This document shows, one piece after another, positions 3,389 through 11,259 of a stretch of 64,000 nt of DNA. The translations under genes and the position numbers were made by a program. The notes under the pieces were generated by a model that searched no databases, was not told the DNA's origin, and worked only from the letters and a program-made list of their open reading frames with translations. Numbering within the stretch: the stretch's first letter is position 1; each line of letters begins with the position of its first letter. Source of the DNA: Phenylobacterium sp. (lineage in GTDB: Bacteria > Pseudomonadota > Alphaproteobacteria > Caulobacterales > Caulobacteraceae); the NCBI RefSeq assembly GCF_030679875.1, contig NZ_JAUXSP010000006.1, positions 193,653 to 257,652 on the forward strand. Direction: 5' to 3'.

Positions 3389-4033
3389 CTATTCGGCGAG
3401 ACGTTCCAACGCATCCCAGCGGGTCACGCGGAAGCGCCGGCAGCCGTCGAATTCGACGACCGAGGCGCCCTGAAGCTGGGTCAGCATCCGCGAGACGGTT
3501 TCAATGGTCAGGCCCAGATAGTCGGCCATGTCCTGGCGCCCCATGGGCAGGGCGATCTGCTGGGAGCGATCGCGCTGGGCCAGGTCCATCAGGAAAGAGG
3601 CGACCTTCTCGCAGGCGGTCTTGCGGCCCAGCACCAGCAGGTGCTCCTGGGTGCGCTCCAGTTCGCGGCGGGTGGCCTGCCAGAGCGCGCGATCCAGATC
3701 TTCGTCGCCGGCGAAAGTCTTTACCGCCGAACGTTTCACCACCAACAGGGTGCAGTCGCACAGGGCCTCGGCCGAGAAACGATGCAGCTCACCGGTTTCC
3801 AGGCCGACCAGGTCGCCAGCGTAGTAGAAGCTGCCCACCTGGCGTCGGCCGTCGCTCAGCAGGCGGGTGGTCCGCACCGCGCCGGACACGACGATGTAGA
3901 GCAGGTCGGCCTCTTCATCCTGGCAGAAGATTTCCTCGTCCTTGGCGAAGTTCATGCGCAGCCCAAGACGCTCCATCACCTGAGCGATGGCGGGGGTGGC
4001 GAGGGGGGCGTCGGAGGCGTAGGCGAGGGTCAT
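3389..4033 (-). CDS. fixK: CRP/FNR family transcriptional regulator, FixK type
   Basis: A 214-residue regulator with an N-terminal cyclic-nucleotide-binding-like beta roll and a C-terminal winged helix. The recognition helix reads ETVSRMLTQLQ, with the E..SR pattern that reads TTGAT half-sites. It lacks the N-terminal cysteine cluster of true Fnr, so it should not sense oxygen through an iron-sulfur cluster. That fits FixK, whose level is set by FixJ. Start 4033 is preferred over 4090: an AGGA(C) stretch precedes it and homologous sequence begins there. A FixJ-like site lies 71 bases upstream. It probably activates hemN, the quinone reductase and the receiver-only gene nearby, plus terminal oxidase genes elsewhere. 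Confidence 0.92.
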   Translation of the reverse strand: MTLAYASDAPLATPAIAQVMERLGLRMNFAKDEEIFCQDEEADLLYIVVSGAVRTTRLLSDGRRQVGSFYYAGDLVGLETGELHRFSAEALCDCTLLVVKRSAVKTFAGDEDLDRALWQATRRELERTQEHLLVLGRKTACEKVASFLMDLAQRDRSQQIALPMGRQDMADYLGLTIETVSRMLTQLQGASVVEFDGCRRFRVTRWDALERLAE

Positions 4034-4103
4034 GGCGGAGGTCCTTGAGCCGATGACCTCATCCTGGCGCGCGCCGCCCTGCGCTGACATTCAGGTCCGC
4101 TAC

Positions 4104-4117
4104 CTAAGTAGTTTCCC
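4104..4117. promoter_or_regulatory. FixJ-binding-like site upstream of fixK
   Basis: CTAAGTAGTTTCCC differs at one position from GTAAGTAGTTTCCC, which I recall as the high-affinity FixJ site of the Sinorhizobium meliloti fixK promoter. The core also forms an inverted repeat, CTAC-CTAA-GTAG, at 4100-4111. It lies 71 bases upstream of the fixK start, on the fixK side of the divergent intergenic region. The call rests on sequence similarity and on fixJ being two genes away. Confidence 0.75.
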
Positions 4118-4164
4118 GGAAGTGCGGCGCCTGGAATCTGTGGCGCCTCGCAGCGTCGGCGTCC

Positions 4165-4178
4165 TTGACGCTCGTCAA
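4165..4178 (+). promoter_or_regulatory. FNR/FixK box between fixK and quinone reductase gene
   Basis: TTGACGCTCGTCAA is a perfect inverted repeat of TTGAC around four bases, close to the FNR/FixK consensus TTGAT-N4-ATCAA. It lies 51-64 bases upstream of the gene starting at 4229 and about 130 bases from fixK. It is best placed to activate the flavodoxin-fold gene. Autoregulation of fixK is also possible. Confidence 0.8.
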
Positions 4179-4228
4179 GGCGCCGGCCCGGATCACAGCC
4201 CAAGACTGTCGAGCCTGGAGAGCTCCCC

Positions 4229-4831
4229 ATGACGGCCGCCCGAATCGCCCCCCGCAAGATCCTGCTGATTAACGGCCATCCCGATCCCCATCCGGACCGG
4301 CTGTGTTCGGCCTTGGCCAGCGCCTATGCCGAAGGGGCGCAAGCTGCGGGCCATCACGTCAGGCGGATCGAAGTCGGCGGGCTGGCGTTGCCGCCCATCA
4401 CCTCCCAGGCCGCCTTCATGGCCCCCTCAAGCCCTGAGGTCGCCGAACTCCAGGCGGCCGTGCGGGAGGCCGATCATCTGGTGCTGATCTACCCGCTTTG
4501 GCTGGGGGCGCCCCCAGCCGTGCTCAAGGCCTTCCTCGAACAGGTGTTCCGCTATGGCCTGGCCCTGGCGGCGCCGGGGGAGGCCAAGGGGGTCAAGGGC
4601 CTGCTCGCTGGCCGCTCCGCCCGGGTTGTGGTGACCATGGGCATGCCGGGCTTCATCTTCCGCCTGGTCTTCTTCGCTCACGGCCTGAAGTGCGTCAGCC
4701 GGGGGCTGCTGTGGGTGTCGGGATACCGGCCGGTGCGAGAGATGGCCCTTGGTCCCGTCGAATCGCCCGATCCGGCCCGCCGACTGCGTTGGATTGCACG
4801 CCTGCGCAGCCTAGGCGCAGAGGCTGCATGA
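4229..4831 (+). CDS. flavodoxin-fold NAD(P)H dehydrogenase (quinone) family protein
   Basis: A 200-residue protein of the NQO1/KefF/MdaB family: FMN or FAD-bound enzymes that reduce quinones with NAD(P)H in the cytoplasm. The N-terminus has the flavin-phosphate loop after a beta strand (LLINGHPDPHPDRLCSAL), then the typical DHLVLIYPLWLGAPPAVLKAFLEQVF segment around residues 85-110. It diverges from fixK with a strong FNR/FixK box 51-64 bases before its start, so it is probably induced at low oxygen. The exact substrate cannot be assigned. Confidence 0.85.
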   Translation: MTAARIAPRKILLINGHPDPHPDRLCSALASAYAEGAQAAGHHVRRIEVGGLALPPITSQAAFMAPSSPEVAELQAAVREADHLVLIYPLWLGAPPAVLKAFLEQVFRYGLALAAPGEAKGVKGLLAGRSARVVVTMGMPGFIFRLVFFAHGLKCVSRGLLWVSGYRPVREMALGPVESPDPARRLRWIARLRSLGAEAA

Positions 4832-4845
4832 ACGACTGCGCCTCC

Positions 4846-5220
4846 TCAGAGGGGCAGCATCTGGTGGATGTGGCCGAGCAGTAGATCTCCGAGAAGGGGT
4901 TTCTCGACCACCTGAGCCTGAAGGCGTGCGGCCCGGGCGCGGACCTCCGGCGTGGGGTTGCTGGTGATCAGTATGGCGGGCAACGCCACGGCGCGGTCGC
5001 GGAGAACCTGCAGCACATCCAGCCCTGACATGCCGCTCAGGCGATAGTCCAGCACCAGACAGGCCCGATCCTCCGGCAAGACCTGCCTCATGAGGTCTTC
5101 TCCAGTGGCGGAGGATTTCACGCGATAACCTTCGATCTCGAGGGAGAAGGTCAGCGCCCGTCTCAGAGCCGCATCGTCGTCTAGCAGGACGACCATAGGC
5201 GCAGGACGTATGACGGTCAT
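4846..5220 (-). CDS. single-domain response regulator, FixT-like position
   Basis: A 124-residue receiver domain with no output domain. Phospho-acceptor Asp58 (VLDYRLSGMSG), the acidic DDD at 14-16, the Thr of LITSN and Lys107 (VEKP) are all present. In Caulobacter crescentus, a receiver-only protein, FixT, is made under FixK control and inhibits FixL. This gene has the same company (fixL, fixJ, fixK) and a FixK-like box at 5292-5305. Unlike what I recall of C. crescentus FixT, which binds an Fe-S cluster through several cysteines, it has a single Cys (54). Start 5220 lacks a clear Shine-Dalgarno; 5235 and 5265 are in-frame alternatives. The FixT role is inference. Confidence 0.8.
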   Translation of the reverse strand: MTVIRPAPMVVLLDDDAALRRALTFSLEIEGYRVKSSATGEDLMRQVLPEDRACLVLDYRLSGMSGLDVLQVLRDRAVALPAILITSNPTPEVRARAARLQAQVVEKPLLGDLLLGHIHQMLPL

Positions 5221-5291
5221 GGTCTCAGCAAGCATTGGCCACGGGCTCAGGGAGCGGAACGCCAAATCTAGGGGCGGGGGGGCGCCCGTCC

Positions 5292-5305
5292 TTGATCCAA
5301 CGCAA
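5292..5305. promoter_or_regulatory. FNR/FixK-type box upstream of receiver-only gene
   Basis: TTGATCCAACGCAA has one perfect TTGAT half-site and a second half with two mismatches, spaced by four bases. It is centred about 78 bases before the start at 5220, in the gap between fixJ and the receiver-only gene. The position suits activation of the latter by FixK. Confidence 0.6.
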
Positions 5306-5356
5306 AGGTCAGCCGCGGGCGCCCAGCCCGAGCGAGATTTCCTGCTGCGCCATGCC

Positions 5357-5953
5357 CTAGGGTCTGATCAACAGCACCATGCGGATCAGCTCCGAGAGGC
5401 CCCGAGCGCCGGTCTTCGACATGACGTTGGCCCTGTAGACCTCCACCGTTCTGGGGCTGATACCCAGTTCGTGGGCGATCACCTTGTTCAGCTTGCCCTC
5501 GACAACGCCCTCAAGAACCTCGTGCTCCCGGGGGGAGAGACTGTCGAGAACGGCGCGAACCCGCTCGCGTTCGGGGTCCTCGGCGATGGTCGGGCTCTGC
5601 GCTGTGCGGATCGCCGCCAGGAGTCGGTCCTCCTCGAATGGCTTCTCCAGAAAGTCGACCACCCCGGCCTTCATGGCCTCTACCGCCAGGGGCACGTCAC
5701 CGTGACCTGTGATCATGATCACAGGATAGGCGCATCCGCGGGACTTCAGCCGCCGCACCAGCTCCAGCCCTGACATCTCAGGCATACGGATGTCCGTAAC
5801 GATCACGCCAGCGGGCGCCGCATCCAGCGCCTCGAGGAACCGCGGGGCTGAGTCGTAGGTGCGGGCGACGAGTCCGGCCGTGTCCAGGAGGAAGGCGAGG
5901 GATTCGCGCATCGCCTCGTCATCGTCGATCACATGAACAACAGATTCAGTCAT
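5357..5953 (-). CDS. fixJ: two-component response regulator FixJ
   Basis: A 198-residue FixJ with an N-terminal receiver domain, phospho-acceptor Asp54 ([11 protein letters not shown]), the Thr in MITGHGD and the Lys in FLEKPF. The C-terminal LuxR-type helix-turn-helix carries the [22 protein letters not shown] signature. Phosphorylated FixJ activates fixK. The start at 5953 overlaps the end of fixL by eight bases, so the pair is translationally coupled. The matching DNA site is seen upstream of fixK at 4104. Confidence 0.95.
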
Positions 5954-7439
5954 CGGACTCCAAATCCTCACGCCTCACCCCGCGAAGGGTGAAGCGAAAA
6001 ATCGTGCCGCCCCCCGGATTAGGCTCGGCCCAGATCCGTCCCCCGTGCGCTTCGACGATCGTCCGCGAGATCGAAAGGCCAACACCCATACCTTGGGGCT
6101 TGGTGGTCACGAAAGGCTGGAAGAGCTGATCGATCATCTGCGGGGCGATCCCTGGACCTGAATCGGCGACGGTCACCTCAACCATATCCTCGGCGGCGGG
6201 CTGGGTCGCGACGGTCAGTTCCCGGCGCGTCGAGGTCTCCATGGCGTCAATGGCGTTGCGCATGAGGTTCAGCAGCACCTGCTGGATCTGGACCTTGTCG
6301 GCCAGAACCAGGCCCAGCTGGTGATCGAGCTGGAACTGCAGGCGCACCCCCCGCTCCTTGGCGCCGATCATGGCCAGGGCCCCGGCTTCCTCCAGAAGCT
6401 GCGGCAGATTTTCGATGCGTCGGTCAGATTCGCCCTTGGACACGAAGTCCCGCAGGCGCCGGATGATATGGCCTGCCCGCAGCGCCTGTTCGGTGGCGCT
6501 GGACAGGGCGCCCTTGATCTTGTCGCGGTCCAGTTGCGGCGCGTCCAACAGTCGCTCGGAGCCCTTCACATAGTTGGCGATGGCCGACAGGGGCTGGTTC
6601 AGCTCATGGGCCAGGGCGGAGGCCATTTCGCCGAGCGCAGTCAGCCTGGAGACGTGAACCAGCTCCGACTGCAGATCCTGCACCCGGCGCTCGGTGCTCT
6701 GGCGCTCGGTCAAGTCGCGGACAAAGCCGGTGAAGAACCGATTGCCCATCGTCTCCATCTCGCCGACGGCCAGTTCCATGGGAAAGGTGGAGCCGTCCTT
6801 TCGTGCGCCCACCACGACCCGGCCAATACCGATAATCCGCCGCTCGCCGGTCTGCATGTAGCGCAGCAGATAGCCGTCGTGCTGCTCCCGGTAGGGACTG
6901 GGCATCAGGGCCGAGACATTGCGGCCCACAGCTTCGTCCGCGCGCAGGCCAAACAGTCGTTCTGCGGTCGCGCTGAACGAGCGCATCACCCCAAGGTCGT
7001 CGATGACGATCATCGCGTCGGGAACAGTCTCCAGAATGGACCGGAGCCTGGCCTCGCTCTCGGCCAGGTGCAGGATGGCCTGTGCGCCCTCGGTGGTGCG
7101 CCGCTGCAGGTGGCTGCCGGCGATAGCGATCGCGACGCCGCTGATGACGAACAGCAGACTGTCGACCTGGTTGGCCATGCCGGTAAACGCGGCATGTCCG
7201 CCGAGCGCCCACGCACACCCCATGCCGGCGAAGGTCGCCAGCAGGGCCGGGCCTGCGCCCCCCATGAGCCCGCCTATGACGGCGGCTGGCAGGAAGACCA
7301 GATAAACGGTCCGTTCCCCCACCAGAGGCAGGATCGCGACAAAAAGGGCCGCCGATAGGGCGGTAGCCCCCACCGCCCACAGGTATCCGGTCCAGGCGGG
7401 TCGCCGAGTTGCGACGTTGTGCCAAGTGAGCCAGTGCAT
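5946..7439 (-). CDS. fixL: oxygen-sensing haem PAS histidine kinase FixL
   Basis: A 497-residue membrane kinase. About four hydrophobic segments lie in residues 15-110. A PAS domain follows, with the FixL haem pocket: His187 in [12 protein letters not shown] as proximal ligand, then [11 protein letters not shown] with the conserved arginine and [14 protein letters not shown]. The HisKA domain has His278 in [13 protein letters not shown], and the ATPase domain has N, G1 and G2 boxes. Deoxy haem allows autophosphorylation and transfer to FixJ. The start at 7439 has no clear ribosome site; an upstream ATG at 7490 would add a basic stretch and is less likely. It is transcribed with fixJ. Confidence 0.95.
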
Positions 7440-7522
7440 GGAGAGATGCGGTAGAAGGGGTCGCCGCGCTTGGCAAGCACGGCGGACCAACCGCGCGGGC
7501 GGTGGCGGAAGAGGCGACTGAG

Positions 7523-8146
7523 ATGGACGAGGTCAGATGGGCGCCCTTTCTCGTGGCCGCAGTGCTGATCGAGCTCACCCCCGGCCCCAACATGGGCTAC
7601 CTCGCCCTGGCCAGCGCGCGACGGGGTTGGGCCGCCGGTCTGTTGACCGTCGCGGGCGTGACCTTGGGACTGACGGTCCACATGGTGGCCGCCGCGGCAG
7701 GGCTGTCGCAATTGGCTGCCGCCCAGCCCCTGTTGTACGAGGGGCTCCGCTGGACAGGCGTCTTCTACCTGCTTTGGCTAGCCTGGGAAGGCTGGCGCGA
7801 CCGTGCGGCGTCTTCGACCTTGGAAGACAAGTCGGTCGGGGATTGGCGGGACGTGCGCCGGGGTTTCATCACCAACCTGCTGAATCCGAAGGCGCTGATC
7901 TTCTATGTGGCGGTGTTGCCAAGCTTCGCGCCCCCTGGCGCGGAGAGCCCGTTGCGGGTCTTCCTGCTGCTGGGTTCGATCCACCTCACCGTCTCGATAG
8001 TGATCCACATCGCGATCGTGGCCCTGGGCGCCCGCGCCTATGACTGGGTGGCCCGGACCGACCGGGCGCCCCAGATCCAGGGCGCCTTCGCCCTAGGTCT
8101 GGTGGCGGTGGCGGCCTGGGTGGCCTGGAGCACCCGGGGGGGCTAG
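7523..8146 (+). CDS. LysE/RhtB family amino-acid exporter
   Basis: A 207-residue inner-membrane protein with five or six hydrophobic segments. It has the LysE-family signature [23 protein letters not shown] near the N-terminus and [19 protein letters not shown] at mid-protein. These transporters export amino acids or their derivatives by proton exchange; the substrate is unknown. Start 7523 follows GAAGAGG by about 8 bases; an ATG at 7502 is an alternative. It diverges from fixL and converges with the small gene at 8143-8247, overlapping at the stops. Confidence 0.9.
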
Positions 8147-8247
8147 CGCTTGCCGCCGTTCGACCAGAGGCTGAACCCAAACAGGGTGACGGCGAAGGCG
8201 CCGAAGGTGGCCAGGACCAAGCCCAGGTAAAGGTCGTGAAAACTCAT
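8143..8247 (-). CDS. 34-residue single-pass membrane protein, unannotated type
   Basis: A small ORF on the minus strand starting ATG at 8247 after AGGAG at an ideal distance. It encodes MSFHDLYLGLVLATFGAFAV and then [14 protein letters not shown]. Residues ~6-28 form one hydrophobic helix with small-residue spacing (G9, G16, G24), and the tail is basic, so a one-pass membrane peptide with its C-terminus in the cytoplasm is plausible. The stop overlaps the end of the LysE gene tail to tail. A FixJ-like CTAGGTAG at 8316-8323 lies 69 bases before its start, nearly the spacing seen at fixK. I do not recognise the family; an oxidase accessory peptide is one guess. Confidence 0.6.
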   Translation of the reverse strand: MSFHDLYLGLVLATFGAFAVTLFGFSLWSNGGKR

Positions 8248-8315
8248 GGTTTGCTCCTCTCGAATGCAGGAAAGGATTCCGTCCGGCCGCTCAGGCGAAA
8301 ATTCCGGTTTGACGC

Positions 8316-8323
8316 CTAGGTAG
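8316..8323. promoter_or_regulatory. second FixJ-like site, between small membrane gene and cytochrome c
   Basis: CTAGGTAG matches the CTAAGTAG core of the fixK upstream site with one change. It sits 69 bases upstream of the minus-strand gene starting at 8247 and about 67 bases upstream of the plus-strand cytochrome c starting at 8390. Either or both could be controlled. The extended GTTTCCC flank of the fixK site is not present, so the call is weaker. Confidence 0.4.
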
Positions 8324-8389
8324 GACTACGGAGGCGGCAGGATCTGGACCCATCAGCTAGGATGCCCCGCCACCCATGGGAGACTTGCA

Positions 8390-8776
8390 ATGCGCGAAGC
8401 CTTGATCGTTCTGTGCCTCGCCGGCGCCCTGGCCTCCTGCGCGACCCCAGCCGCGCCTCCGCCGCAGACCTTGAGTCCCGCCGCCGAGCGCGGCCTGCAA
8501 TTCGTCGCCCGATCTTGCGCGGGATGCCACGCCGTGGGCTATGGGGGGCATAGCGCCAATGCGGTGGCGCCGGGCTTCGCCAGCGTGCGGATGCGCCATA
8601 CCGCCATCGGGTTGGAGCGGTCGCTGGCGCAGATCGCCCGGGAAGGCCATGGCGAGATGCCGCCGATCTATATGACGTCGGCCGAGATGCAGGACATCGT
8701 GGCCTATATTGAATCCCTGGAGCCCGTCGCGGAGGCCCCTTCGCCCGGCGCCGTGATCAACAGGGCGGCGCTTTAG
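8390..8776 (+). CDS. lipoprotein mono-haem cytochrome c
   Basis: A 128-residue c-type cytochrome. The lipobox LASC puts the acylated Cys at residue 17. A proline-rich linker leads to one CxxCH haem motif (CAGCH, residues 43-47), and the class I sixth ligand is probably a Met in GEMPPIYMT near residue 90. It should be anchored to a membrane in the periplasm and carry electrons to or from a redox partner not seen here. It converges with the fusion gene at 8773, overlapping by four bases. The FixJ-like core upstream suggests low-oxygen control. Confidence 0.88.
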   Translation: MREALIVLCLAGALASCATPAAPPPQTLSPAAERGLQFVARSCAGCHAVGYGGHSANAVAPGFASVRMRHTAIGLERSLAQIAREGHGEMPPIYMTSAEMQDIVAYIESLEPVAEAPSPGAVINRAAL

Positions 8777-11259
8777 AGAATTCGCCGGCTCCAGTCGCCG
8801 TAGCGCGCCCGCACTGGGCCCCGCCGAACCGACAGCGCGATGAGGGCGAGCCCCGCGGCCATGGCGGCGGCGGTGTGCAAGGTGGAGCTTTCGAATGTCA
8901 GGGCGCTGACCAGCAGCGCGGCGCCCAGCAGGGGCAAGGCCAGGCGAGCCGTGCGGGTCACCTCTGCTGCAGCAATAGCCACCACGGTCAACACGAGCGC
9001 CCCGATCAGGTGGTCAGCATCGGCCGCCGCGCCTTCGGCCCCGAGTGTCAGGCGGCTGAACATCAGCCAGATCCCTATCGCAGCGGCCACAGCCAGATTC
9101 CACGGCAGATTGACCCCGCCGCCCGCCATGTCCCGCAGGATGACCGGCGCCGGGCGGGCGAACTCGTCGGTTTCGACTTCGGAGCCACCCTCATCGGTGT
9201 CGCCGACCAGAAGCGTTCTCAGGATCGGATGACCCGCCTGTTTGCGCCGCGCCAGGAATTGCAGGCTCGCGAGCAGTTCGTCCATGGCGTAGGGCACCTG
9301 CAACAGCATGGCCGCGGCGCCGATCAGGCACAGGGTGCACCAGGTCCCGATCACGATCGGCTGGATGATGATGAAGGCGATGGAGACCACGCCCAGGGGG
9401 ACGATCATCAGACCGAAGGCGATCACCAGCCAAGGCATGGTCCGCCAGCGTCGCCGGGAGCCGATGAGCCCGGTGACGATTTCCAGTGCGTAGACCAAGG
9501 CGCCCACGGCCGCATCTGGAATGGGCCAGGCCTTGGACACATCCGAAGTGATGATCTCTTCGGTCCCGTTACGTGGGTCCGGCCCCCCGGGGAAGAAAGG
9601 CTCCCATACGGCGTCGATGTGGCCGAGCTGGTAGGCCGACAGGATCAGCGAGACGAAGAGCCCGATCACAGCCAGGCCGATGATCGGCAGTCGCTGGGTC
9701 CAGTCGGACGGATTGTAGCCCCAGCCCGGGGGCGTCAGGGGTCCTGTGCGCTCGGCGGCAGGCGTGACGCCAGGGTCGGGACGAAACCCCACCGCCAGCG
9801 CCATGGTGAGGCCGCCGACAAGCACGCCATTCAGGAACGCTGCGGAAGAGGGCGTCCAGAACAGGATCGGCGCAAAGATCACCCACAGCCCCACCGCCGC
9901 CGCGCCCCAGCGGGCCAGCCATAGGCGCGGACTGAGGGAGAGCGCGCCCAAGACGATGAGGCCGATCCCGGAGGCGACCTGGCTGGCGACCAACCGGCCG
10001 TCCTCCAGGCCCATGGCCGGCGGCGTGGCCACCAGCCAGGCCCCCAGGGCCATGACCGCCATATGCGCCCAGCGTTGGCGGGCATGGGCGTCGCTGAAGG
10101 CCGCTTCATGCGCCAGCCGGGTCGACTCGGGCTCCAGGTCGGCGTCCTTGGCCACGCTCATCCAGGCGGGCACCGGAACACCGTTGGCCTTGTGCCAGCC
10201 CTCCGGGTCGGCCTGCAAGGCGGCCACCAGCCGTGGCAGCTCGTCCCGCAGATGGTGGCGGGGCCGCCAGTCCAGCACGGCCGCCGCCCGGCTGATATCC
10301 AGGGCGTAGTGGTCGTCCGCCATCCGGACCATGAAGGGGCGGATGAAGGGCTTTTCCCCTTGATCCAGGGCGTCTGGAATGACCGGTTCGAGCTTTTCCT
10401 GGACCCAGGCGCCCACGGCCGCGATCGGCTTGGGCGCGCGAAGCGTCAGCCAATCTTCGCCGTGGATAAGTTGGCCGATCTGATCCTGCAGCGCTTGGTA
10501 GGACAGCGCCTCGGCCTCGCCGATCAGGACGGCTGTGTCGCCAGGCAGGCGGTCGCGCCTGTCCACGGCGCGCACGAAGGCGTCCACCATGTCATCCTTG
10601 TGGAGCATGGACTGGCCAACCTCGGTGTCCCCCGAATAGAGGTGGCTCTCAAAGTCTCGCTCGTAGATGCGGGCGATCTGCTGGGAGAGGGTCGGAACAG
10701 CGGTCTGCTCGTCATAGACCCCGGCGAGCCGAAGCAGCAGGTAGGGGATGTCGCCGGCGTTTTCGGCGACGGCGGCCTCGGCTGCGGCCTTGGACTGGGG
10801 ATAGATCCACTGAGGATCGAGGGGCTGGCGCTCGTCCAGCCGCTCCCCTGGCTTCACCGGGGCGTGGACCAGCATGGTGCTCGCATAGATGAACTGCTCG
10901 ACCTCGAAGGTCTGCAGAGCCTTGAGCAGGCGGCGCGTCCCCGCGACATTGAGCGCCTCGTACAAGGGGTGATCCTCGCCCGAGAAATCGAAATAGGCCG
11001 CCAGATGAATGACGCTGGCCAGCCGAGGGCCATAGCGTCGGCGCACCTCGGCCAGGGCCGCGGCAATGGACTGCGCCGAGGTCAGGTCAGCCGCGATCAG
11101 AGGGAAGTCGTTGGAGCCGCCCTCCAGGTCCAGCCCAACAATCTGATATTTATCAGAGAGGTGTGCGGCGAGGGCCGCGCCCAGATTGCCTGCGGCGCCG
11201 GTGATCAGCACCAGCGGTTTGTCGTGTCCTGTCAGATCGCGCGGTGACGTCGAAGTCAT
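8773..11259 (-). CDS. NAD-dependent epimerase / SPW-repeat / VKOR-like membrane fusion protein
   Basis: An 828-residue three-part protein. Residues ~15-330 are an extended short-chain dehydrogenase with the Rossmann loop GAAGNLG and active-site YPQSK. Residues ~395-490 are hydrophobic and resemble the SPW repeat. Residues ~520-670 resemble vitamin K epoxide reductase, with the redox pair WCTLC. A further membrane segment ends the protein. The two cysteines of CTLC are the only ones in the chain, so the loop cysteines that relay electrons in classical VKOR are missing. Function is unknown; a membrane quinone- or disulfide-linked reaction is inferred. It ends against the cytochrome c gene and follows two small genes in an apparent operon. 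Confidence 0.85.
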   Translation of the reverse strand: MTSTSPRDLTGHDKPLVLITGAAGNLGAALAAHLSDKYQIVGLDLEGGSNDFPLIAADLTSAQSIAAALAEVRRRYGPRLASVIHLAAYFDFSGEDHPLYEALNVAGTRRLLKALQTFEVEQFIYASTMLVHAPVKPGERLDERQPLDPQWIYPQSKAAAEAAVAENAGDIPYLLLRLAGVYDEQTAVPTLSQQIARIYERDFESHLYSGDTEVGQSMLHKDDMVDAFVRAVDRRDRLPGDTAVLIGEAEALSYQALQDQIGQLIHGEDWLTLRAPKPIAAVGAWVQEKLEPVIPDALDQGEKPFIRPFMVRMADDHYALDISRAAAVLDWRPRHHLRDELPRLVAALQADPEGWHKANGVPVPAWMSVAKDADLEPESTRLAHEAAFSDAHARQRWAHMAVMALGAWLVATPPAMGLEDGRLVASQVASGIGLIVLGALSLSPRLWLARWGAAAVGLWVIFAPILFWTPSSAAFLNGVLVGGLTMALAVGFRPDPGVTPAAERTGPLTPPGWGYNPSDWTQRLPIIGLAVIGLFVSLILSAYQLGHIDAVWEPFFPGGPDPRNGTEEIITSDVSKAWPIPDAAVGALVYALEIVTGLIGSRRRWRTMPWLVIAFGLMIVPLGVVSIAFIIIQPIVIGTWCTLCLIGAAAMLLQVPYAMDELLASLQFLARRKQAGHPILRTLLVGDTDEGGSEVETDEFARPAPVILRDMAGGGVNLPWNLAVAAAIGIWLMFSRLTLGAEGAAADADHLIGALVLTVVAIAAAEVTRTARLALPLLGAALLVSALTFESSTLHTAAAMAAGLALIALSVRRGPVRARYGDWSRRIL

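Follow-up and report, generated by a model that had tools for sequence, protein, structure and literature searches.

Low-oxygen oxidases harbour small single-helix proteins, such as CcoQ/FixQ, CydX, and other small oxidase subunits. The first two presumably correspond to the Pfam families PF05545 and PF08173. The 34-aa peptide described here shares with them its small size and single helix, but NCBIfam gave only isolated matches of single members to unrelated families, and a Pfam scan of 36 members at E <= 10 listed no CcoQ, CydX, or CcoS model. There is no accepted Pfam or NCBIfam match for the family, in agreement with the initial annotation, which recognised none for the peptide; the scattered matches of single members had best E-values of 0.021 in Pfam and 0.0031 in NCBIfam (SecE). 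One of the 36 scanned members matched CcmD (PF04995) at an E-value of 0.14 only, and we claim no relation to that family.

CcoM of Pseudomonas stutzeri, a cbb3 oxidase subunit of 36 aa, resembles the peptide in size and in being a membrane protein tied to low-oxygen respiration (according to the available part of PMC10433244). However, no oxidase chain was matched by the family profiles, and the family is also present where ccoN was not found. Among PDB sequences, profile A1 had no match at E <= 10 and profile A3 had 20, all of them GABA receptor chains with E-values of 0.72 or worse. No CcoM-like chain was found by sequence in this search, which used a PDB copy that may not include a CcoM chain of at least 20 residues. 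In size and setting the peptide is closest to CcoM or CydX-type small subunits, but it has no detected sequence relation to them and is not confined to genomes in which a cbb3 oxidase was found. It can also be likened, in general character, to YohP, the 27-aa stress peptide of E. coli, as a stress-linked small membrane peptide with no detectable catalytic activity; unlike our family, YohP is tied to stress and the stringent response and not to FNR/FixK, as far as the accessible text of PMC12719787 tells. Among the matches listed in our search of the open-licence literature, we found no description of the peptide family, which is weak evidence of absence since subscription papers were mostly outside the scope of the search.

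On the regulatory side, the closest described systems are the fixK promoters activated by FixJ. Their described elements are CSNAATWT at about -33 and, upstream of it, a site of the TAAG or GTAMGTAG type, and fixK was the only consistent FixJ target in the Caulobacterales genomes of the same study, in the portion of it at hand (PMC4999443). The pattern CTACYTAGG-N7-CCKGAAT, common to the small ORF and fixK of one genome, contains this published CSNAATWT, but the target here is not fixK.

The small gene and its FixJ-type promoter

The window, i.e., the whole stretch of 64,000 nucleotides of Phenylobacterium DNA that was analysed, contains a minus-strand fix cluster composed of fixK (3389-4033), a FixT-like single receiver domain (4846-5265), fixJ (5357-5971), and fixL (5946-7490), next to which lies a plus-strand LysE-type gene. 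fixJ matched NCBIfam NF006900 above the cut-off. fixK matched NF050806 (FixK, E 3.8e-66) with 222 bits, below the cut-off of 300, and the ATG at 4033 is its likely start because the start of the longest ORF, at 4090, overlaps the promoter element described below. The FixT-like gene was named from FixT NF051882 (E 2e-13, below the cut-off) and from its place in the fix cluster. Its translation contains a single cysteine; Caulobacter FixT is a four-cysteine Fe-S protein (PMC7078487, from the part of the article available). FixL has a hydrophobic N-terminal region (hydropathy; DUF4118-like, below the cut-off) and PAS and kinase domains (Pfam).

The initial annotation had placed a small ORF with a ribosome site and a single helix on the minus strand at 8143-8247, and both its coordinates and its strand proved right. 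The stop codon overlaps that of the LysE-type gene, tail-to-tail, at the palindrome CTAG (8143-8146). Directly upstream of the ORF lies the ribosome-binding-site-like GAGAGGAGC (8253-8261, minus strand), and GAGGAGC is conserved ahead of the start in seven of the nine sequences aligned for the window clade. In 28 pairs from 8 close Phenylobacterium genomes, pN/pS ranges from 0.00 to 0.59, and codon positions 1, 2, and 3 account for 11, 12, and 21 variable sites. Equal synonymous and nonsynonymous change, which according to the initial annotation would have spoken against the gene, is thus not what we observe: the small ORF is a real gene whose reading frame is under purifying selection.

A search with this one sequence in 60 relatives (window genome included, E <= 1) gave matches in 18 genomes, and 16 peptides, the window's included, make up one family. 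Five loci (L016, L018-L021) were rejected as chance, their matches lying inside long unrelated frames or lacking a start, as were profile matches inside long frames in the genus and class searches. Using a profile of the 16 peptides, we found strong members in 30 of 100 Phenylobacterium genomes (E <= 5.7e-11), every translation of which was inspected. AlphaFold2 models the 34-aa peptide as one helix, from residue 3 to 31 (mean pLDDT 91.6), and hydropathy also predicts a single transmembrane helix. Summed over the 30 strong peptides, the charges are +0/-25 on the N-side and +64/-7 on the C-side, so that, by the positive-inside rule, the acidic N-terminus is predicted to lie outside and the basic C-terminus inside. 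The peptides have the conserved pattern YL..V..AF..F...L and are otherwise a mostly hydrophobic helix with few fixed residues.

Upstream of the gene, CTAGGTAG at 8316-8323 reads CTACCTAG on the strand of the small ORF and shares 7 of its 8 bases with CTACTTAG, which precedes fixK in the same relative orientation. The distances to the starts are 69 for the small ORF (8316-8247) and 71 for fixK (4104-4033, given the ATG at 4033). The initial annotation had reported both the likeness of the two cores and these distances, correctly. A match of 8 bases would by itself mean little. It is part of a larger minus-strand element, CTACCTAGG-N7-CCGGAATTT (8299-8323), with a core at 8323-8315 and a CSNAATWT-type element CGGAATTT at 8306-8299; the matching element upstream of fixK is CTACTTAGG-N7-CCTGAAT (4089-4111, minus strand). 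In the window clade the pattern reads CTAC[CT]TAGG-N7-CCGGAATTT, and the promoter block is conserved in all 9 aligned sequences, the window's included. The 23-bp pattern common to both promoters has exactly two exact matches in the 3.5-Mb genome of the window, at fixK (4111-4089) and at the small ORF (8323-8301). It has two more with one mismatch, one of them just upstream of the gene of the alternative oxidase (AOX). As a reversed control pattern gave 5 matches at up to two mismatches in this genome, against 5 for the real one, we put weight only on the exact and nearest matches. The site match goes beyond chance because the block is kept in the nine sequences of the clade, the genome holds but two exact 23-bp matches, and the frame is under purifying selection.

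The same arrangement holds beyond the window clade. Core and downstream element are found in 25 of the 30 strong upstream regions, 71-82 nt before the start, whereas 200 dinucleotide shuffles averaged 0.16 such regions and never exceeded 2; exact CSNAATWT is found in 16 of them (200 shuffles: mean 0.6, maximum 3). The wider consensus is CCGTA-N3-CTAC[CT]TA[AG]G-N7-CC[GC]GAAT or near variants. Two of the off-pattern regions (L026 and L125) are recognisable but deviating, and L032, L033, and L038 are also without the element. As at fixK, the core and the CSNAATWT-type element stand at fixed spacing and point at the gene. Regulation of the small ORF by FixJ, as predicted from these sites, is well supported. 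If CSNAATWT sits near -33 here as well, the transcript would begin at about 8274, with a leader of about 27 nt.

The cytochrome c that the initial annotation had described as a plus-strand lipoprotein is indeed found at 8390-8776, divergent from the small ORF (Pfam Cytochrome_CBB3 at E 6.1e-9, and Cytochrom_C), with a lipobox-like LASC close to the N-terminus as read from the translation. A possible -10 element of this gene, CTAGGAT (8357-8363, plus strand), is exact in 6 of 9 aligned sequences. The FixJ-type site would fall near -50 of this putative -10, which makes co-control of the cytochrome geometrically possible. On its other side, the cytochrome adjoins a minus-strand gene (8773-11259) for an 828-aa fusion of NAD-dependent epimerase, SPW repeat, and VKOR domains (Pfam), and it does so in 7 of 9 loci of the window clade.

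Linkage to fixLJ

The initial annotation had proposed testing whether the peptide stays linked to fixLJ or to the cytochrome, which it does in part. fixLJ lies within about 7.5 kb of the small ORF for 24 of the 30 strong members, and a related cytochrome is divergent from it in 10 of the 30 (window, L022-L024, L028, L118, L119, L123, L124, and L130; 43% identity in L028). The other six are away from fixLJ (L025, L120, L031, L032, L033, and L038), the FixJ matches of these genomes being on other contigs or far off. The arrangement of the genes varies, which makes the linkage more telling. In the window clade, the small ORF is convergent with LysE and beside fixL. In ten loci it is convergent with fixJ, and in nine of these AOX lies beyond fixL, giving the order AOX-fixLJ-small ORF. 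In L030, L036, and L125 it is downstream of fixJ on the same strand, with the order NRAMP, cytochrome, ccoNOP, and ccoG onward in L036, and in L031 it is divergent from AOX. Finally, in L028 and L130 it immediately precedes fixL, both genes being read in one direction. There it is the first gene before fixL behind a FixJ-type promoter, and fixLJ could be positively self-regulated in these two loci.

A member is missing from nine other fixLJ loci of Phenylobacterium. Among these, L141 has a FixL 90% identical and shows (at 6101-6345) a clean deletion of the small ORF and of half the FixJ core, with fixL, LysE, and the cytochrome kept; the gene is therefore dispensable at least there. The deletion joins at CCTACC, a sequence present at both ends in the relative L138. 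This loss bears on the necessity of the gene, and not on its reality or its regulation elsewhere. On the cytochrome side, L141 has a palindromic stretch that was not seen in L138. In the eight further loci (L147/L234, which are one place, L148, L150, L159, L230, L231, L233, and L235), neither profile found a member, and some of these genomes carry one elsewhere. Across 78 fix loci scanned, there were eight clear members (L138, L140, L142-L146, and L158, from assemblies already counted) and none in the remaining 70 at E < 0.2, with no member in the fix loci of Kaistia, Xanthobacteraceae, Mesorhizobium, and Novosphingobium. Ten loci have a FixL at least 75% identical; among these, the sequence of L139 breaks off short of this position, and in L141 the gene is gone. 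In one clade, then, there is a strong tendency for the gene to be linked to fixLJ. A 34-aa hydrophobic peptide, MPFEAIVVLGLVTFIFATFAAGLVWADYQTREFR, lies beside a FixT-like gene in a fix locus of Hyphomicrobiales (L156:9568-9687); its E-value of 3.1 to the family makes it a lead only.

Such linkage would be expected of a transmembrane modulator of FixL, induced by FixJ, that binds the membrane N-terminus of FixL and feeds back in parallel to FixT. The loci with the small ORF upstream of fixL or downstream of fixJ on one strand, and the hydrophobic N-terminal region of FixL, fit this reading. Nevertheless, we consider it rather unlikely, given the strong members away from fixLJ, the nine fixLJ loci lacking a member, and the deletion in L141 that spared fixL.

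Diverged members, the FNR/FixK box, and the oxidases

An iterated profile over 34 further loci added 24 diverged Phenylobacterium members; 20 of their genomes are not among the 30, and G011 and the assembly of L149 supplied the rest. Two TTG-started frames within the end of a LysE-type gene (L132:3182-3256 and L137:3202-3276, E 0.011-0.014) were left out. Three loci (L218, L232, and L149, E 0.016-0.29) were kept despite scoring below these frames, partly for their place in a fix cluster, and the 24 diverged loci are therefore unfit for measuring linkage. The diverged members usually have upstream of their start the motif TTGAY-N4-RTCAA of FNR/FixK regulons: in its strict form, TTGA[TC]-N4-[AG]TCAA, it is present at 16 of the 24 loci, 64-71 nt before the start. 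The diverged locus L136 has a FixJ-type element. Among the 30 strong members the strict box occurs in two, and the window's own gene is without it. One genome, G465, carries two family members, L136 behind its FixJ-type element and L232 in a cco-hemN-fix cluster.

The search of 385 genomes of the class returned 24 with a member at E <= 3e-5, the window's included. For 13 of the other 23, which were rows of profile A3, the E-values are not independent. The strict box lies within 160 nt in 17 of the 23 (10 of the 13 profile rows and 7 of the 10 added by the search); loci L259-L263 were left out of the 23, and over all 28 loci the count is 19. As background, the box precedes 6 of 194 gene starts and 2 of 575, and it occurs in 228 of 20000 windows taken at random. 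Where a class carrier has ccoN or cydA, the box was found in 16 of 18 cases, versus 1 of 5 where it has neither; this comparison is post hoc and uncorrected. A plasmid search with one class peptide gave no match. In total there are 77 homologous frames: 30 strong, 24 diverged, and 23 class-level. The majority follow a site of the low-oxygen type. The family thus reaches other alphaproteobacterial families, usually behind an FNR/FixK box, which goes beyond the initial annotation. With such boxes in most relatives, low-oxygen control seems to characterise the family as a whole, the window clade being placed, by its sites, directly on FixJ.

Several of the diverged members have genes of low-oxygen respiration as neighbours. 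We searched ccoN, fixJ, cydA, and AOX with family models, while ccoO, ccoP, ccoG, ccoH, ccoI, hemN, NRAMP, and LysE outside the window were named by tblastn to window genes that had been named by reading or Pfam. The order ccoNOP-ccoGHI-hemN-peptide is found in L218, L221, and L232 and is partly seen in L149, L161, and L220, the peptide gene of L161 coming directly after hemN. L216 and L217 have the order fixK-peptide-cytochrome-ccoNOP, and L116 has peptide-ccoN. Altogether, members lie beside ccoN, cco-hemN, or a fix cluster in L036, L116, L149, L161, L216-L221, L225, and L232. Among 13 class loci, fix or cco neighbours were recognised by eye in none of 12. The thirteenth, L100, is from another alphaproteobacterial family, and its genes were also named by eye: a peptide with an FNR box is followed on one strand by fixL-like and fixJ-like genes (4002-6512). 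Its fixL-like translation begins directly at the PAS domain and has no membrane region (by eye). Both the 12 loci without a recognised fixLJ and this kinase argue further against modulation of FixL through its membrane N-terminus.

In the genus, all 30 strong carriers have fixJ (61 of 70 other genomes), 29 have cydA (39 of 70), 26 have ccoN (41 of 70), and 25 have AOX (25 of 70), all counts being uncorrected for ancestry or genome incompleteness. In the class, ccoN is found in 16 of 24 carriers and 140 of 361 other genomes, with the same lack of correction; cydA, in 15 of 24 carriers versus 27 of 46 others from a hand-picked set, is no commoner in carriers. The initial annotation had seen in the peptide a possible subunit of a terminal oxidase. 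It does lie among cco genes in several Phenylobacterium genomes, yet ccoN was not found in 4 of the 30 strong carriers, some of whose genomes are incomplete, and neither ccoN nor cydA was found in 5 of the 24 class carriers. Two genomes (G034 and G490) have a FixJ-type small ORF, and neither ccoN nor AOX was found in them. A strict subunit of cbb3 or bd oxidases is rejected on this co-occurrence, and no single oxidase is required by the family. In five relatives (G001:C155, G451:C9, G445:C99, G463:C31, and G479:C31), the small ORF shares its contig with a cydA-type gene some 8-10 kb away, which in four of the five is a second copy.

That no single oxidase is required, and that most of the peptide is a hydrophobic helix in which few residues are fixed, would also suit a general low-oxygen membrane peptide that alters membrane properties or energy use and has no single-complex partner. 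Such an effect has been reported for YohP (PMC12719787, in the part of the paper at our disposal). We regard this as unlikely, since there are signs of a specific partner: purifying selection, the conserved pattern, and recurrent positions next to cco, hemN, fix, and AOX genes.

The alternative oxidase and the proposed role

The element upstream of AOX in the genome of the window is at G000:C2:19983-20005. Among 29 Phenylobacterium AOX loci scanned (L269-L288, L027, L029, L035, L121, L122, and L126-L129), a FixJ-type element was found with at most one mismatch in 9 and with at most three in 24, at -50 to -83 from the extrapolated start; these counts are without a shuffle control, matches with three mismatches can arise by chance, and that of L275 is at an unlikely position. 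AOX looks like a direct FixJ target in Phenylobacterium, judging from these upstream regions. Among the matches listed in our search of the open-licence literature, no description of AOX as a FixJ target was found, which is weak evidence of absence as subscription papers were mostly outside its scope.

The small ORF and AOX both appear to be targets of FixJ, and one clade has them as neighbours. With the order AOX-fixLJ-small ORF in nine loci and a divergent pair in L031, the peptide could serve AOX specifically. This is very unlikely, as 5 of the 30 strong carriers have no AOX match, the diverged members sit with cbb3 genes, and the AOX elements include the three-mismatch matches just mentioned. 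That the ORF is untranslated, and the conserved block nothing more than promoter sequence of the cytochrome or of fixL, could be argued from the shortness of the frame and its loss in L141, and is extremely improbable in view of pN/pS, the codon-position pattern, the conserved start and ribosome site, and the 77 homologous frames, most of them behind low-oxygen-type sites.

Because no one oxidase is required, we propose an accessory role without naming a complex, the main alternatives being modulation of FixL and a general effect on the membrane. In the proposed sequence of events, FixL would phosphorylate FixJ as oxygen falls, and FixJ would bind the element at 8299-8323 and activate the small ORF as it does fixK, possibly also activating the divergent cytochrome from the other side. 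The peptide would then insert N-out/C-in. Its most likely task there would be that of a small factor that assists or stabilises the respiratory chain at low oxygen. That it is a microaerobically induced single-helix membrane microprotein, accessory in low-oxygen respiration with no one complex named, is a reading to which we give an even chance. A wider one is tentative, and we hold it possible rather than likely: a widespread FNR/FixK-controlled microprotein of Alphaproteobacteria would be a dedicated component of the low-oxygen chain, joining whichever low-oxygen oxidase is present, and Phenylobacterium would have rewired it to FixJ along with AOX, as a conserved FixJ output beyond fixK. Judging from the sites, and independently of this wider reading, most of the family seems to be controlled by FNR/FixK, with the lineage of the window one step up the cascade, under FixJ, as for the AOX gene. 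We infer the direction of this shift from the distribution of the sites and not from a tree.

Small membrane proteins of respiration easily escape annotation, and this family lies outside Pfam and NCBIfam in a class long studied for low-oxygen respiration. Control sites, linkage, and selection agree on one undescribed family. With the small ORF and AOX, the FixJ regulon of Caulobacterales would reach beyond fixK. The family provides FixLJ with a testable direct output there, and it offers an example of one gene apparently shifting between two levels of one cascade. In many Alphaproteobacteria, it is probably an overlooked part of living with little oxygen.
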